From assembly GCF_000306785.1 (NCBI RefSeq), contig NC_017955.1, positions 4,092,001 to 4,156,000 of the forward strand: 64,000 nt of DNA, written 5' to 3'. The position numbers and the translations under genes are program-made. Below, in pieces: positions 46,215-52,305 of the stretch. The notes under the pieces were generated by a model that was not told the origin of the DNA, ran no database searches, and was given only the letters and a program-made list of their open reading frames with translations. Positions within the stretch are counted from its first letter, which is position 1. Every line of letters starts with the position of its first letter. This DNA comes from Modestobacter italicus. Its GTDB lineage: Bacteria; Actinomycetota; Actinomycetes; Mycobacteriales; Geodermatophilaceae.

Positions 46215-46649
46215 ATGACGACCCTCCCGCACCCCAGCATCCCCGTCACCAGCGATGCCGAGCTCACCGAGCGCTGGCGCACCCTGCTGCACCTCGACGG
46301 TTCGCCGTCCCAGCGCCGGCTCTTCCTCGCCTGGCTCCGCACCGACGGCACGATGGTCCCGCTGTTGATCCCAGTCGAGGAGCTCCCGGTCGAACCCGAC
46401 CGGGTGGCGATCGGCAATGTCCACGAGCTGCACTCCGTCGTGGCCGAGTCCGAGGGCCTCCACCCGGCCGACCTGCACCTGGCCATGTGCCTGGAGCGGC
46501 CCGGGCCCGCCACCGCCGACGACGACGCCTGGTGCGCAGCGATTGAGTCGATCGTCCGCGGACGGGACGGCATCGACTGCAGCCTGCATGTCGGTGACGG
46601 ACGCATCGCCCACCTGCTGCTGCCCCGTCGGCGGTGGCCGGCCGGGTGA
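46215..46649 (+). CDS. Small hypothetical protein, paralogue of the gene at 50050
   Basis: I do not recognise the family. The 144-residue protein shares a clear pattern with the protein at 50050-50502: ELTERW near the start, LAWLRTDGTMVPLLIPV, LHLAMCLERPGP, and a C-terminal HVGDGRIAHLLLPRRRWP. There is no signal peptide or membrane segment. It is followed at once by a strong hairpin. The two paralogues flank the ABC importer genes. Confidence 0.72.
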   Translation: MTTLPHPSIPVTSDAELTERWRTLLHLDGSPSQRRLFLAWLRTDGTMVPLLIPVEELPVEPDRVAIGNVHELHSVVAESEGLHPADLHLAMCLERPGPATADDDAWCAAIESIVRGRDGIDCSLHVGDGRIAHLLLPRRRWPAG

Positions 46650-46684
46650 TCGTGCTCTGCTGCCGTGGGGGCAGCAGAGCACGA
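46650..46684 (+). terminator. Perfect hairpin after the hypothetical gene
   Basis: TCGTGCTCTGCTGCC and its exact complement form 15-bp arms around a 5-nt loop, starting one base after the stop codon. The same 15-nt arm recurs in the hairpin at 49941-49975. It lacks a T tract but is a likely terminator or RNA-stabilising element. Confidence 0.65.
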
Positions 46685-46748: not shown

Positions 46749-46851
46749 TTCACGGGGTCGTTACAGCGCGGACACGGGCAGCGCTCAGACGGGCCGTTGA
46801 GTGCAGGCCACCAGCGCACCCCGCGCTGGCGCCGCCCTCAGAGGAGACCCG

Positions 46852-47826
46852 TTGAGCCCCTCCGCCGTCCGCCGCGCGATCGCCGGCAGCGCCGTCGCCA
46901 CCGTCGTCCTCTCCCTCGCCGCCTGCGGCTCCGACTCCGACTCCGCGGAGGCATCCGGGGGCAGCGGCGAGACGCAGACGGTCACCGTCGGCACGCTGCG
47001 CGGCCAGCCGCACTTCTACGCGCCGTTCCTCTACGAGGACCACGCCGTGGACGGAGTCGAGTTCGAGGTCGTCACCCTGGACAGCACCCCGGCGCTGACC
47101 GACGCGGTCTCCTCCGGCACGGTCGACTTCGCGATCACCGGCATCACCGCGACCATCTCCGGCATCTCGCAGGACCGCGACCTGACGATCGTCGCCTCCG
47201 CCGCCGACGGCGGGTCCGGCTTCATCGGCGGCGACGACATCCAGAGCGTCGCCGACCTGGCCGGCAAGAAGGTCGGCTACATCCAGGGCAGCGCGCCCGA
47301 GGTGGCGATGCGGCTGATCCTCGCCGAGAACGACGTCGACCCGAGCAGCCTCGAGCTGGTCGCCGTCCCGCCGCCGGAGATGGCCTCGGCGTTCAACAGC
47401 GGCTCGGTCGACGCGTTCTTCGGCACCGAGATCGCCGTCTCGCTGGCCACCGCCGCCGGCGGCCACGCCATCACCGACCCGTACGACACCCCGATCGGCA
47501 AGGTGAACATCGGCCTGGTCACCACCGGCTCGATGGTGACCGACGACCCGGAGCTGGTGCAGAAGGTCGTCGACACGCACGCCGCCACCACCGAGTACAT
47601 GACCGACAACATCGACGAGTGGCTCCCGGAGATGGTCCAGGAGTTCGGTGGTGACCAGGCCGTCCTGGAGTCGGCGCTGGAGAACTTCTGGCTGCGCGCC
47701 GACCTGAGCGAGGAGTACCAGGGCCAGGTCGAGGCGCTCGCCGGCGCGATGGTCGACCTCGGGCTGATCGAGACCGCCCCGACCGCCGACGAGCTCGTCG
47801 ACGCGTCCTTCGCCCCCGAGTCCTGA
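46852..47826 (+). CDS. ABC transporter substrate-binding lipoprotein, NMT1/SsuA-like
   Basis: I choose TTG 46852 because GAGGAG lies 5 nt upstream and the protein then begins with a clean lipoprotein signal (basic MSPSAVRRA, hydrophobic core, lipobox LSLAAC). The mature part has features of aliphatic sulfonate/taurine/thiamine-precursor binding proteins: VTVGTLRGQPHFYAPF, LTDAVSSGTVDFAITG, SVADLAGKKVGYIQGSAPE. It is first in an SBP-permease-ATPase operon. The ligand cannot be read from the sequence; nearby selenoprotein and LLM oxidoreductase genes hint at an organosulfur or organoselenium compound. Confidence 0.85.
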   Translation: MSPSAVRRAIAGSAVATVVLSLAACGSDSDSAEASGGSGETQTVTVGTLRGQPHFYAPFLYEDHAVDGVEFEVVTLDSTPALTDAVSSGTVDFAITGITATISGISQDRDLTIVASAADGGSGFIGGDDIQSVADLAGKKVGYIQGSAPEVAMRLILAENDVDPSSLELVAVPPPEMASAFNSGSVDAFFGTEIAVSLATAAGGHAITDPYDTPIGKVNIGLVTTGSMVTDDPELVQKVVDTHAATTEYMTDNIDEWLPEMVQEFGGDQAVLESALENFWLRADLSEEYQGQVEALAGAMVDLGLIETAPTADELVDASFAPES

Positions 47827-47884
47827 TCTCCACCGGGGCGCCGGCGCGGACCGCGCCGGCGCCCCCTCCCGGGAGGAACGCCCC

Positions 47885-48751
47885 ATGACCACCGCCACCG
47901 TCCCGGTCGAGGCCGCGACCCCCACCGCCACCGCACCTCCGCCTCGCAGAGGGCGCGGCCAGCTGCGCACCGTCCTGCTGGGCCTGCCCGTGCCGCTGCT
48001 GTTCCTGCTGCTGTGGCACGTCGGCCGGGAGAACGCCTGGGAGCTGCCCTTCGGCATCCGGATGGGCTTCCTCCCCTACCCCGCCGACGTCGCCCGCGGG
48101 CTGGCGAACTACGCGTTCGGCACCCGGGACGACGCCTTCAGCAACCTGCTCTGGGAGGACCTCCCGGCCAGCGCGCTGCGGGTGCTCTCCGGCTTCGCAC
48201 TGGCCACGCTGGTCGCCGTCCCGCTCGGGGTGCTCATGGGCCGCTTCACCACCGCGCACGCCCTGTTCGACCCGATGATCAACCTGTTCCGGCCGATCCC
48301 GGCGACCGCCTGGGTGCCGCTGGTCGCGCTGCTCATCGGCTACGGCGACCAGGCCTCGATCTTCCTGATCACGCTGTCGGCGTTCTTCCCGATCGTGCTC
48401 GGCACGATCAGCGGCGCCCGGCAGGTGCCCGAGCGGCTGCTGGAGGCCGCCCGGATGCTCGGCACCTCCGGCGTCGGCACGCTGCTGCTGGTGGTGCTGC
48501 CGGCCGCGGCCCCGGCCATCGTCAACGGCATGCGGGTCGGCCTGGGGCTCTCCTGGGTGATCCTCGTGCTGAGCGAGACCACCGGCGTGCCGACCGGGCT
48601 GGGCTCGACCATCTTCCTGGCCCGCGACGTCGTCCAGACCGACCAGATCGTCGTCGGGATGATCTGCATCGCCGTCGCCGGGTTCCTCTCCGACCGGCTG
48701 CTGATGCTGGTCTTCCGCGTCCTGTTCCGCGACCGCCCGCTGATCAAGTAG
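47885..48751 (+). CDS. ABC transporter permease, SsuC/TauC type
   Basis: A 288-residue permease with a Pro/Thr-rich N-terminal tail, six or so membrane segments and the coupling-loop motif EAARMLGTSGVGTLLLVVLPAAAPAIVNGMRVGLGLSW, typical of sulfonate, taurine and nitrate importers (BPD_transp_1). It begins 58 bp after the binding-protein gene and is followed 10 bp later by the ATPase gene. Confidence 0.88.
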   Translation: MTTATVPVEAATPTATAPPPRRGRGQLRTVLLGLPVPLLFLLLWHVGRENAWELPFGIRMGFLPYPADVARGLANYAFGTRDDAFSNLLWEDLPASALRVLSGFALATLVAVPLGVLMGRFTTAHALFDPMINLFRPIPATAWVPLVALLIGYGDQASIFLITLSAFFPIVLGTISGARQVPERLLEAARMLGTSGVGTLLLVVLPAAAPAIVNGMRVGLGLSWVILVLSETTGVPTGLGSTIFLARDVVQTDQIVVGMICIAVAGFLSDRLLMLVFRVLFRDRPLIK

Positions 48752-48761
48752 GAGCCCGACC

Positions 48762-49547
48762 ATGGAGCAGCTCACTGCTGGCCGCACGGCCGACGTCCGG
48801 ATCGCCGGGCTGACCAAGACCTACGCCGGCGCCGTCACCGCGATGGCCGACGTCGACCTGACCATCGCCTCCGGTGAGTTCGTCGCCGTGGTCGGCGCGA
48901 GCGGCTGTGGGAAGAGCACGCTGCTGCGCATCCTGGCCGGCTTCGAGCGGCCCTCGGCCGGCGTCGTCGAGGTCGGTGGGACGCCGGTCACCGGGCCCGG
49001 CCCCGACCGCGGCGTCGTCTTCCAGGACTACGGCCTGTTCCCGTGGCTGTCGGTGCGGGAGAACGTCGCCTACGGCCCGGCCCGCAAGAAGCTGCCGAAA
49101 GCCGAGGTCGCCGCGGTCACCGACCGGTTCATCGCCGCGGTCGGGCTGACCCGGTTCGCCGGCAAGTACCCCTCGCAGCTGTCCGGCGGGATGCAGCAGC
49201 GGGTGGCGATCGCCCGGGTGCTGGCCAACGACCCGTCGCTGCTGCTGATGGACGAGCCGTTCGGCGCCCTCGACGCGCTCACCCGGTCGGACCTGCAAGC
49301 CGAGCTCAAGCGCATCCACGTCGACACCCGGACGACGGTCGTGTTCGTGACGCACTCGATCGAGGAGGCTGTCTTCCTGGCCGACCGGGTGGTGGTGATG
49401 ACCGGCGGCGCCTCGCACGGCGTACCCGGCCACATCAGCCGCATCGTGCCGGTGGAGCTCGCCGACCGGGACGTCACCTCACCGGCGTTCAACGCGGTGA
49501 AGCGGGAGATCGCCGAGCTGGTGCACGCCGTCCCCGAGCCGGTGTGA
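48762..49547 (+). CDS. ABC transporter ATP-binding protein, SsuB/TauB type
   Basis: The 261-residue ATPase has Walker A GASGCGKST, the Q-loop FQDYGLFPWLSV, signature LSGGMQQRVAIARVLAND, Walker B LLLMDEPFGALDA and the H-loop VFVTHSIEEAV. The FPWL after the Q-loop is typical of the nitrate/sulfonate/taurine family. It powers the importer formed with the two upstream genes. Its last bases overlap the start of a small membrane protein gene. Confidence 0.92.
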   Translation: MEQLTAGRTADVRIAGLTKTYAGAVTAMADVDLTIASGEFVAVVGASGCGKSTLLRILAGFERPSAGVVEVGGTPVTGPGPDRGVVFQDYGLFPWLSVRENVAYGPARKKLPKAEVAAVTDRFIAAVGLTRFAGKYPSQLSGGMQQRVAIARVLANDPSLLLMDEPFGALDALTRSDLQAELKRIHVDTRTTVVFVTHSIEEAVFLADRVVVMTGGASHGVPGHISRIVPVELADRDVTSPAFNAVKREIAELVHAVPEPV

Positions 49548-50049: not shown

Positions 50050-50502
50050 ATGACGACCGCACCCCCCGCCCCGACCTCGCCGGTGACCGACGACGGTGAG
50101 CTCACCCAGCGGTGGGCCGAGCTGCTGACGCCCGGCCGGCCGCAGGAGGCCACGCTGTGGCTGGCCTGGCTGCGCCCCGACGGAACCATGGTGCCCACCC
50201 TCATCCCGATCGACGAACTGGCCGAGCACGACACGTCCGCGCTCGGCAGCGGGCTCCTGACCCTGCACGACGCCATCGCCATAGCCGAGCGCTGCGACCG
50301 GGACGCTCTGCACCTGACCCTGACCCTGGAGCGACCCGGGCCGCTGGCCGAGGACCCCTCAGAGATGGACGAGGAGTGGTGCGAGCTGCTCGAGGAGGCC
50401 GTGACGCGGGGGCTCGACCAGGGGTGCAGCTTCCACGTCTCCGACGGCCGGTCGGTGCGGCAGCTGATGCCCCGGCGGTTCTGGCCACAGCCGCGCCGGT
50501 GA
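50050..50502 (+). CDS. Small hypothetical protein, paralogue of the gene at 46215
   Basis: The 150-residue protein matches its paralogue in ELTQRWAELL, LWLAWLRPDGTMVPTLIPIDEL, LHLTLTLERPGPL and the C-terminal HVSDGRSVRQLMPRRFWP. It has no recognised domain, signal or membrane segment. It is preceded by a copy of the hairpin that follows the other paralogue, so gene and hairpin may have been duplicated together. Confidence 0.7.
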   Translation: MTTAPPAPTSPVTDDGELTQRWAELLTPGRPQEATLWLAWLRPDGTMVPTLIPIDELAEHDTSALGSGLLTLHDAIAIAERCDRDALHLTLTLERPGPLAEDPSEMDEEWCELLEEAVTRGLDQGCSFHVSDGRSVRQLMPRRFWPQPRR

Positions 50503-50686: not shown

Positions 50687-51223
50687 ATGCCCGTGGGCTT
50701 CGAGATGCTGGACCCGACCGTGCAGGCCGAGGGTGCGGCGGTGCTGCTCGCCGACCGGCCCGCCGACCTCCGCGGCAAGCGCCTGGTGCTGATGGACAAC
50801 GGCAAGCACAACGCCCGCGAGCTGCTGGAGGCGGTCTTCGCGATCGTCGGGCCGGAGCTGGCGCCGTCCTCGGTGACCTGGAAGACGGTGCCCGCCACCT
50901 GGCCGGCGGACGACGCGCTGCTCGACGAGATCGCCCGGGACTGCGACCTGGTCCTCGAAGCGGTCGGTGATTAGGGCAGCTGCAGCGCGGCCAGTGTGGC
51001 CGACGTCATCCTGATGGAGAAGCGCGGAATCCCTTCCGCAGCGATCTGCACCGACGCACTGACGATGAGCGCCGACGCCATGGCGATCATCCAGGGCGCA
51101 CCCGACTACCGGTACGCCGTCGTCCCCCACCCGGTGAGCAGCCTGGACGCCGACGGCATCGCCGCGGTCGCGAAGCTGGCGGCACCGCAGGTGATGAACA
51201 TCCTGCGCGGAGAGGCCCCGTGA
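50687..51223 (+). CDS. UGSC-family selenoprotein with selenocysteine encoded by TAG
   Basis: Two adjacent frames form one protein if TAG at 50972-50974 is read through. The upstream part ends ...DCDLVLEAVGD, and the downstream part continues in the same frame as GSCSAASVADVILMEKRGIPS. The TAG falls exactly at the U of the UGSC motif that defines this (seleno)protein family, where other members have Sec (TGA) or Cys. Residue 96 would be Sec, with Cys at 99, a redox pair. Start ATG 50687 has GAGGAG 5 nt upstream. The stop overlaps the next gene by GTGA. UAG-directed Sec is, as I recall, reported in Geodermatophilus and Blastococcus. The biochemical role is unknown, probably redox chemistry. Confidence 0.85.
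50985..51006 (+). promoter_or_regulatory. Candidate bacterial SECIS hairpin downstream of the TAG selenocysteine codon
   Basis: CGGCC-AGTGT-GGCCG forms a 5-bp stem with a 5-nt loop at 50988-51002. With A51003 bulged the stem extends by three pairs to 50985/51006. The loop begins 18 nt after the TAG and has G as its second base, which fits the bacterial SECIS consensus as I remember it. It lies within the coding sequence, as expected for bacteria. Confidence 0.65.
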
Positions 51224-52305
51224 CCGAACAACAGACCGCCCTCACCCCCGAGGACCTCGTCGCCGCGATCGAGCAGTGCCACGAGAACGGCTGGACCGAC
51301 GGCCTGCCCGTCGTCCCGCCGATCCCGAGCCTGGTCAACCGGTTCCTGGAGCACACCGACCGCTCGCCGACCGACGTCATCTGGACGATGAAGCAGGTCA
51401 AGCGCGGGTGCACCGTGCAGGCCGCCGCGATCAACGCGGCGATGGCCGGCTGCAAGCCCGAGCACTTCCCGGTCGTCCTGGCCGCGCTCGAGGCGACGGT
51501 CGACGAGGGCTGGCCGGGCCTGGGCGGGTGGCAGAGCACCACCGGTGGCGGTCCGCTGCTCATCGTCAACGGCCCGGTCCGCACCGAGCTCGGCTTCAAC
51601 GCCAAGGGCAACGTGTTCGGGCCGGGCTTCCGGGCCAACGCCACGGTCGGCCGGGCGCTGCGGCTGATCATCATGAACGCCTATGGCATCCGGCCGCACG
51701 AGCTCGACCAGGCCACCCAGGGCTTCCCCGGCAAGTTCTCGATGTGCATCGCGGAGAACGAGGAGGAGAGCCCCTGGGAGTCGCTGTCGGTCACCCTCGG
51801 GCACGAGGCCGGCGTCAGCACCGTGTCGGCGCTGCACACCCGTAGCACCGAGCACGTCGACAACCGCAACGTCGGTGACGCCCGGTCGGTGCTCAACGAC
51901 ATCGCCGACACCTGCGGCCGGATCGGGCCGATGACCCGCCGGTTCCGCCGGGTCGGGGTGGTCATCGGGCCGGAGCACGCGCAGCTGCTGGCCAGGCAGG
52001 GATTCTCCAAGCAGGACGTCCGGGAGTACCTGGCCGAGCACAGCGGGCGGACGGCGGGCGCGCTGCGCGCCGCCGGCCGGGGTGAGTCCACGGCGGTCTT
52101 CCAGTCGCCTGGACCCGCGGCGTTCGACGAGGCGGCGGCCTCAGACCTCACCCACGTGCCGGACGACGAGCTGGTGACCGTGCTGCGCACCCCGGAGGAC
52201 GTGGTCGTGGTGGTGGCCGGCGCCGCGAACGCCGGGGTCTCCACGGTCGTGCAGACGCTGGGCTTCCCGACGAAGACGATCGGGACCGCCGTCGTGCGGT
52301 CGTGA
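51220..52305 (+). CDS. Conserved partner protein of the UGSC selenoprotein, function unknown
   Basis: The 361-residue protein starts at GTG 51220, in GTGA overlap with the selenoprotein stop. It has conserved-looking blocks near the N-terminus (HENGWTDGLPVVPPIPSLV), a Cys-containing MKQVKRGCTVQAAAINAAMAGCKPEHFPVV, and GFNAKGNVFGPGFRANATVGRALRL. I do not recognise a catalytic family. Such proteins are, as I recall, common neighbours of UGSC genes, and the two probably act as one complex or pathway. Cys residues in the first third could take part in thiol/selenol chemistry. Confidence 0.75.
   Translation: MTEQQTALTPEDLVAAIEQCHENGWTDGLPVVPPIPSLVNRFLEHTDRSPTDVIWTMKQVKRGCTVQAAAINAAMAGCKPEHFPVVLAALEATVDEGWPGLGGWQSTTGGGPLLIVNGPVRTELGFNAKGNVFGPGFRANATVGRALRLIIMNAYGIRPHELDQATQGFPGKFSMCIAENEEESPWESLSVTLGHEAGVSTVSALHTRSTEHVDNRNVGDARSVLNDIADTCGRIGPMTRRFRRVGVVIGPEHAQLLARQGFSKQDVREYLAEHSGRTAGALRAAGRGESTAVFQSPGPAAFDEAAASDLTHVPDDELVTVLRTPEDVVVVVAGAANAGVSTVVQTLGFPTKTIGTAVVRS

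Follow-up and report, generated by a model that had tools for sequence, protein, structure and literature searches.

Does a TAG codon in the middle of an otherwise open bacterial reading frame end the protein, or is it read as selenocysteine (Sec)? The question is raised by a gene in the window, i.e., the whole stretch of 64,000 nucleotides analysed here (positions 4092001-4156000 of a single-contig genome of 5,575,517 bases). Comparison with related sequences makes it highly probable that this gene makes a UGSC-family selenoprotein, the UAG being read as Sec by means of a tRNASec with CUA anticodon, SelA, SelB and a hairpin behind the codon, and that the protein works together with the product of the next gene.

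The UGSC gene and its in-frame TAG

50687..51223, plus strand: UGSC-family selenoprotein gene (PF24696 and NF041046 matches of the read-through; ATG start, TGA stop)
50972..50974, plus strand: in-frame TAG, putative selenocysteine codon (aligned codon in relatives TGA, TAG or TGC)

The TAG is the sole interruption of the frame, whose read-through product is 178 aa long with Sec as residue 96. The original prediction had joined the two frames separated by this codon into one UGSC-family protein. Indeed, the part preceding the TAG covers positions 1-92 of PF24696 and the part following it positions 94-171, i.e., consecutive portions of one model, and the read-through matches positions 1-171 with 177 bits (cut-off 25). 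It also matches the NCBIfam model NF041046, 'UGSC family (seleno)protein', with 131.7 bits (cut-off 125), so that reading through restores, as had been claimed, a protein of full family length with a U-x-x-C pair. The U/C-G-S-C motif of the family appears at the locus as GD-TAG-GSC, with the TAG at the U/C position; among the 31 named relatives listed, the codon aligned with it is TGA in 26, TAG in four and TGC in one, which places the TAG exactly at the U of the motif. Among these listed matches the four TAG-bearing loci are those titled Geodermatophilaceae or Geodermatophilus, the other 27 having TGA (26) or TGC (one), and the closest relative, L008 (94% identity over query residues 1-81), carries the same TAG. 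The homologues do not end at this codon: past it the family sequence goes on in 30 of the 31 named relatives, and in the 31st (L038) it likewise continues beyond the Sec codon, with the frame lost further down. In every TAG copy that was fetched and aligned, the TAG lies exactly at the Sec codon. The sharing of the TAG with L008, the conservation of the protein downstream and the covarying hairpin behind the codon (see below) together argue that this TAG is not there by chance.

Two more UGSC copies were observed in the same genome (G000:C1:2912838-2913353 and 2917493-2918008; loci L130 and L051, respectively), both having Cys (TGC) in place of Sec and a partner gene of the kind described below beside each.

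Decoding of this kind is known from this bacterial family, as the original prediction had noted. In its available passages, PMC5330540 (2017) describes a tRNASec with CUA anticodon in three Geodermatophilaceae genomes of its set, credits Mukai et al. 2016 with the report of formate dehydrogenases and UGSC-motif selenoproteins in the Geodermatophilaceae genomes using UAG for Sec, and adds AhpC in Blastococcus saxobsidens; UAG for Sec in Blastococcus is also stated in the portion of PMC5133445 at hand. The available portions of PMC10778597, PMC13188914, PMC9312934 and PMC5029168 hold no mention of UAG-Sec in Geodermatophilaceae, and full-text searches led to no further account among those opened. 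Since UAG-Sec in the UGSC-motif proteins of this bacterial family is thus already known (PMC5330540, available passages), the locus is not new in kind. It shares with the system of Mukai et al. 2016, as rendered in those passages, a tRNASec with CUA anticodon, and its named TAG relatives belong to the same bacterial family; as far as that text goes, nothing essential differs at the locus. With the UGSC selenoprotein family (PF24696, NF041046; excerpts of PMC2398784) it shares the family profile and the UxxC motif, the difference being a Sec codon UAG instead of UGA. The results of the present analysis are the hairpin covariation, the codon and anticodon table of the bacterial family and the separate gene lineages, for which an overlap with Mukai et al. 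2016 is possible, and further the partner gene, the GrdB/PrdB lead and a genome with two tRNASec genes. The bacterial family offers a clean natural case in which the Sec stop codon changed across most sampled genomes, and one in which gene callers using the standard code would split or truncate the TAG-Sec genes.

Decoding machinery and the hairpin behind the codon

The genes that the original prediction had named as the ones to look for, a tRNASec with CUA anticodon together with selA, selB and selD, are all in the genome, each over its cut-off. Five matches to the Rfam tRNA-Sec model (RF01852) were found, two of them over the cut-off of 47: the tRNASec(CUA) at C1:1725480-1725571, with 65.8 bits, and a second one with 47.9 bits that is called tRNA-Ser(UGA) by ARAGORN; the three below the cut-off are tRNA-Ser and tRNA-Leu. 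The tRNASec(CUA) gene lies between selD (on the other strand; 377.1 bits, cut-off 125) and selA (412.8 bits, cut-off 267.9), the end of which is overlapped by selB (279.4 bits, cut-off 242.25). Release factor RF1 is present (476.3 bits, cut-off 423.25), and UAG serves as an ordinary stop too: among 31 genes of the window, roughly picked, the stop is TGA in 26, TAG in four and TAA in one, which speaks for a recoding of chosen UAGs and not for codon reassignment. The retention of RF1 opens to study the competition of SelB and hairpin with RF1 instead of RF2. Besides the UGSC gene, a second selenoprotein gene of this genome has a TAG at the Sec position, a formate dehydrogenase from C1:411068 onward with the sequence NQARI-TAG-HSSTVPG, in which, judging from the family motif, we take the TAG to be the Sec site of formate dehydrogenase.

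50988..51002, plus strand: predicted bacterial SECIS apical hairpin (supported by covariation in 43 distinct sequences)
50993..50995, plus strand: rare Ser codon AGT within the hairpin (retained where the gene has Sec, largely missing from Cys genes)

Behind the UGSC codon, 14-28 nt after the TAG, a 6-bp stem (CGGCCA/UGGCCG) closed by a GUG triloop was found. Its conservation was assessed over 43 distinct sequences (18 TAG, 25 TGA), after dropping identical 45-base rows, rows without an aligned codon and rows short of flank, with the window sequence representing the identical L008. Nucleotides 14-19 pair with nucleotides 23-28 after the codon in 99.6% of the 258 cells, and cells changed on both sides number 41, against a shuffle mean of 13.2, with none of 500 shuffles as high. 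The covariation value is 0.475, compared with at most 0.042 when the partner strand is slid by 1-3 bases; as the hairpin was derived from the tested sequences, it is favoured over the slid versions on cells paired, and more weight lies with the double-sided changes. Pairing at the same positions falls to 34-81% in the 32 Cys (TGC) sequences that have GSC, except for one invariant C-G pair. The Ser codon AGT at nt 19-21 is found in 18/18 TAG, 24/25 TGA and 1/32 of these Cys sequences, some of the latter having another residue at the hairpin Ser position, while its background use in this genome is 5 out of 782 Ser codons (39 roughly picked genes). The pairing and the AGT pattern, as they distinguish Sec from Cys genes, point to a constraint on the RNA as well as on the protein.

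A simple hairpin score prefers a longer alternative, with its loop at nt 14-19, in five of 18 TAG sequences (L066, L068, L072, L073 and L074) and in one of 26 TGA sequences (L119), and a shifted hairpin in L025 (TGA; 2693-2737); the common triloop pairs can still form in sequences that score for another hairpin. The formate dehydrogenase, too, has a hairpin behind its TAG, a 7-bp stem with GGUCU loop that starts 19 nt after the codon. Folding energy compared with shuffles was unremarkable for both genes, with z values of 0.00 (49 nt) and -1.09 (64 nt) for UGSC and of -1.40 (44 nt) and -0.56 (64 nt) for the formate dehydrogenase, the stretches of the latter starting one base inside the TAG. In the formate dehydrogenases of Escherichia coli, the SECIS is a short stem-loop that lies some 18-20 nt 3' of the codon and whose loop opens with G. 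The hairpin described here resembles it in being a short stem-loop at a similar distance, likewise with G as the first loop base, and differs in sitting behind UAG and in having a GUG triloop.

Codon and anticodon across the Geodermatophilaceae

UGSC genes are found in 54 of 112 genomes of the same bacterial family. The 95 hits comprise 72 with one in-frame TAG, 23 with no stop and none with TGA or TAA, a tally made by hand from the scan table, with codons read directly only at fetched loci. A tRNASec was detected in 108 of the 112 genomes, and the 110 tRNASec genes read divide into 102 with CUA (101 genomes, G037 having it twice) and eight with UCA. Seven genomes, of genera g6, g7 and g8, have the UCA form only, and one (G059) carries both. 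A tRNASec(CUA) is present in each of the 48 genomes that carry a TAG copy, and in the two UCA-only genomes with a UGSC gene (G067 and G073) this gene has no in-frame stop. Formate dehydrogenases with an in-frame TGA occur in at least four genomes (G072-G075, all of genus g8 among the matches listed), of which three are UCA-only and G072 has no detected tRNASec; beyond the matches listed there are further formate dehydrogenases with in-frame stops, e.g., the TAG gene of the genome studied here. Of 394 genomes sampled from the class, 23 contain UGSC, and the sole in-frame UGSC stop outside the bacterial family, among the matches listed, is one TGA (G197). By eye, the change from UCA to CUA is accompanied by one from U-A to C-G in the last pair of the anticodon stem. 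UCA was presumably the ancestral anticodon in the bacterial family; the scan puts the change from UGA to UAG between the UCA and the CUA genera, which makes the order of events testable.

Two loci from genomes with UCA-tRNASec, L058 (243-2007) and L059 (965-1465), have a Cys-form UGSC with the divergent motif C-AGCC, and L058 has a more diverged UGSC copy in tandem.

A quick tree of 90 UGSC proteins, 24 of them TAG rows, places the latter in four groups, and at least four label changes are needed to explain its well supported branches. Six TGA genes from Actinomycetes and Acidimicrobiales bins form the sister of the group of four TAG genes that includes the window's gene (support 99), the TGA gene of G197 that of a group of 14 TAG genes (support 84), and the remaining two groups lie among mainly Cys genes. 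The tree is a rough one, with support below 80 at 35 of 87 inner branches and a warning of the tree program on long branches meeting at the group of 14 and at a group of four (L061-L064). With four TAG places on the tree, two of them having TGA sisters, the codon seems to follow the organism and not one gene, as judged from this tree; its adoption by several gene lineages is what would be expected if the tRNA decides.

The simplest other account of the TAG, that it is a plain stop and the locus a pseudogene or two separate proteins, has on its side that the standard code terminates at TAG and that UAG ends ordinary genes in this genome too. It would leave unexplained the 72 UGSC hits with TAG in 48 genomes, the alignment of the fetched copies at the Sec codon, the conservation of the protein downstream, the covariation of the hairpin and the matching tRNASec(CUA); we hold it to be very unlikely, and it was rejected on the family-wide TAG copies, the aligned Sec codon and the covariation. 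Pyrrolysine would be suggested by the label 'tRNA-Pyl' that ARAGORN derives from the CUA anticodon. On the contrary, this tRNA scores with the tRNA-Sec model, its gene is flanked by selD and selA, the homologues carry TGA or Cys at the site, and no PylS over cut-off was found in the genome (best 20.5 bits against 178.15; as a control, 13 of 14 control genomes also give matches, one of them over cut-off). Pyrrolysine was ruled out by the tRNA-Sec score and the PylS result, and we give this reading hardly any credence. An explanation of the TAG by a sequencing error, or by a general suppressor tRNA for UAG, is just as hard to believe, given the number of TAG copies and genomes, the specific tRNASec, the SECIS-like hairpin and the retained RF1.

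All 102 CUA tRNASec genes of the bacterial family are labelled 'tRNA-Pyl' by ARAGORN (e.g., L001 1501-1594), a trap for automatic annotation.

Under the selenocysteine reading, we infer Sec insertion, SelB binding and the reaction at this locus as follows. The tRNASec with CUA anticodon would be charged with Ser, as in the known bacterial route, and the Ser converted to Sec by SelA with selenophosphate from SelD. SelB would then deliver the Sec-tRNA and recognise the predicted hairpin just 3' of the codon, SelB and hairpin outcompeting RF1 at UAG 50972-50974 only, with other UAGs still terminating genes. The product would be a redox protein of alpha/beta type that carries a U-x-x-C pair and works with the product of the next gene.

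In addition to a CUA tRNASec on C11, G059 carries a UCA tRNASec at C17:1173-1263 (L216 1169-2157). About 0.3 kb from it lies a TGA-containing gene (C17:1579-2157; CFY-TGA) for a peroxidase-related protein (TIGR01926, 112.6 bits against 81.8), in which the TGA is followed by a possible 7-bp hairpin with a GUU loop and an energy no better than shuffles. Over 1-6 kb, the C17 region has a GC content of 59-65%, and next comes a gene with transposase-type domains; one SelB match is over the cut-off (259.5 bits) and one below (206.4). No TGA was seen among the 27 matches listed for the peroxidase-like protein in the 394 genomes of the class. The C17 region with its UCA tRNASec may be contamination. 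That G059 uses both UAG, with its native tRNASec(CUA), and UGA, with an acquired tRNASec(UCA), the single SelB over the cut-off serving both, is a tentative and rather unlikely proposal; if true, horizontal transfer of one selenoprotein along with a tRNA could bring UGA-Sec back.

Partner gene, fold and possible function

51220..52305, plus strand: partner gene, 361 aa (its GTG start overlaps the UGSC stop, GTGA)
46801..49547, plus strand: ABC transporter genes (SsuA/NMT1-like binding protein, permease, ATPase), upstream of UGSC

At the thresholds applied, the partner gene was assigned to no family of Pfam or NCBIfam, and searching all 31 of its members against both with E up to 10 gave scattered weak matches, with at most three members per family. 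All 30 named loci examined (L038 left out) have a homologue next to UGSC, and a profile search limited by the flank found one in 89 of 91 sources, before or behind UGSC; in that flank-limited search it was not found in L132 and L136 and gave fragments only in L038 and L058. In L029 and L034 the partner is fused in frame to UGSC. The available passages of the GOS paper (PMC2398784) report that UGSC occurs joined to Unknown_1, an unknown domain, which may be the same as the partner. Foldseek returned no convincing match for the partner, the best rows being cyclic amide hydrolases and fumarases (TM about 0.2, E about 0.01), and no relatives of partner or UGSC were confirmed in viral contigs. Two partner copies were observed near one UGSC gene in each of two Bacillota bins (L017 6368-12114; L018 6289-8460), with a third copy in L018 cut by the end of the locus.

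The AlphaFold model of the UGSC protein is alpha/beta with a mean pLDDT of 91.6 and, by eye, a Rossmann/flavodoxin-like order of strands and helices. No convincing fold was found for it in the PDB with Foldseek (best E 4.2e-4, TM 0.38); a PDB search with its sequence gave nothing up to E 1, and one with its profile gave weak matches, the best (E 0.023) being a designed protein. A possible resemblance was tested to GrdB and PrdB (PF07355), the selenoprotein subunits of glycine, betaine and proline reductases, for which a phylum scan gave at least 72 matches in at least 63 of 296 genomes; the set used held 19 proteins, near-copies and incomplete ones being left out of 25 fetched, and in all 19 a TGA lies within three codons after the model end. 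With 91 UGSC rows, hhalign aligned Sec with Sec at 80.8% for GrdB-like, 58.1% for PrdB-like and 93.4% for a joint profile, which was tried after the single ones; as controls, 50 column shuffles of the joint profile gave at most 1.92%, the reversed profile 0.27% and the partner family 0.23%. When 27 UGSC rows were used, the GrdB-like profile gave 47.5%, the PrdB-like one 23.1% and 20 shuffles at most 0.40. HMMER matched none of 27 UGSC members to Pfam GRDB at E up to 10.

This one kind of profile comparison suggests a distant kinship of UGSC to GrdB/PrdB, likeness being found in the alignment of Sec with Sec and in an ExxGIP-like segment behind it. The Cys at +3 of UGSC is shared with PrdB-like sequences, while the GrdB-like sequences used are without it (UGTGTRC); UGSC also lacks the long N-terminal part of GrdB, has a partner other than that of GrdB/PrdB and has no HMMER match to them. 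In the available abstracts on UGSC with glycine or proline reductase, no link is drawn between them. Earlier authors guessed a Trx-like fold (PMC2398784, available passages). A thioredoxin-like thiol oxidoreductase instead of a GrdB/PrdB-like reductase would suit the UxxC pair and agree with the missing HMMER link to GRDB; on the other hand, the model has a Rossmann/flavodoxin-like order at high pLDDT, no thioredoxin is named among the best 50 PDB rows of Foldseek, the profile similarity sets Sec on Sec and a near-constant partner gene lies beside UGSC, so that we regard the thioredoxin-like role as conceivable and somewhat improbable. As for the GrdB/PrdB-like role, UGSC and partner would probably form a two-subunit reductase distantly related to GrdB/PrdB, and our best guess from the aligned motifs is that the selenolate attacks an activated substrate, with the +3 cysteine as the resolving residue. 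The possible kinship and the near-constant partner provide a concrete biochemical hypothesis for an orphan selenoprotein.

The sulfonate-type ABC transporter was considered as a further part of the system and rejected, as it is complete beside UGSC only in L008 out of 30 named loci, where its parts are found one (binding protein), three (permease) and seven (ATPase) times. The genes flanking the transporter in the window (46560-46650 and 50420-50502) end alike by eye, with HVGDGRIAHLLLPRRRW and HVSDGRSVRQLMPRRFW, respectively, and are perhaps a duplicated small gene.
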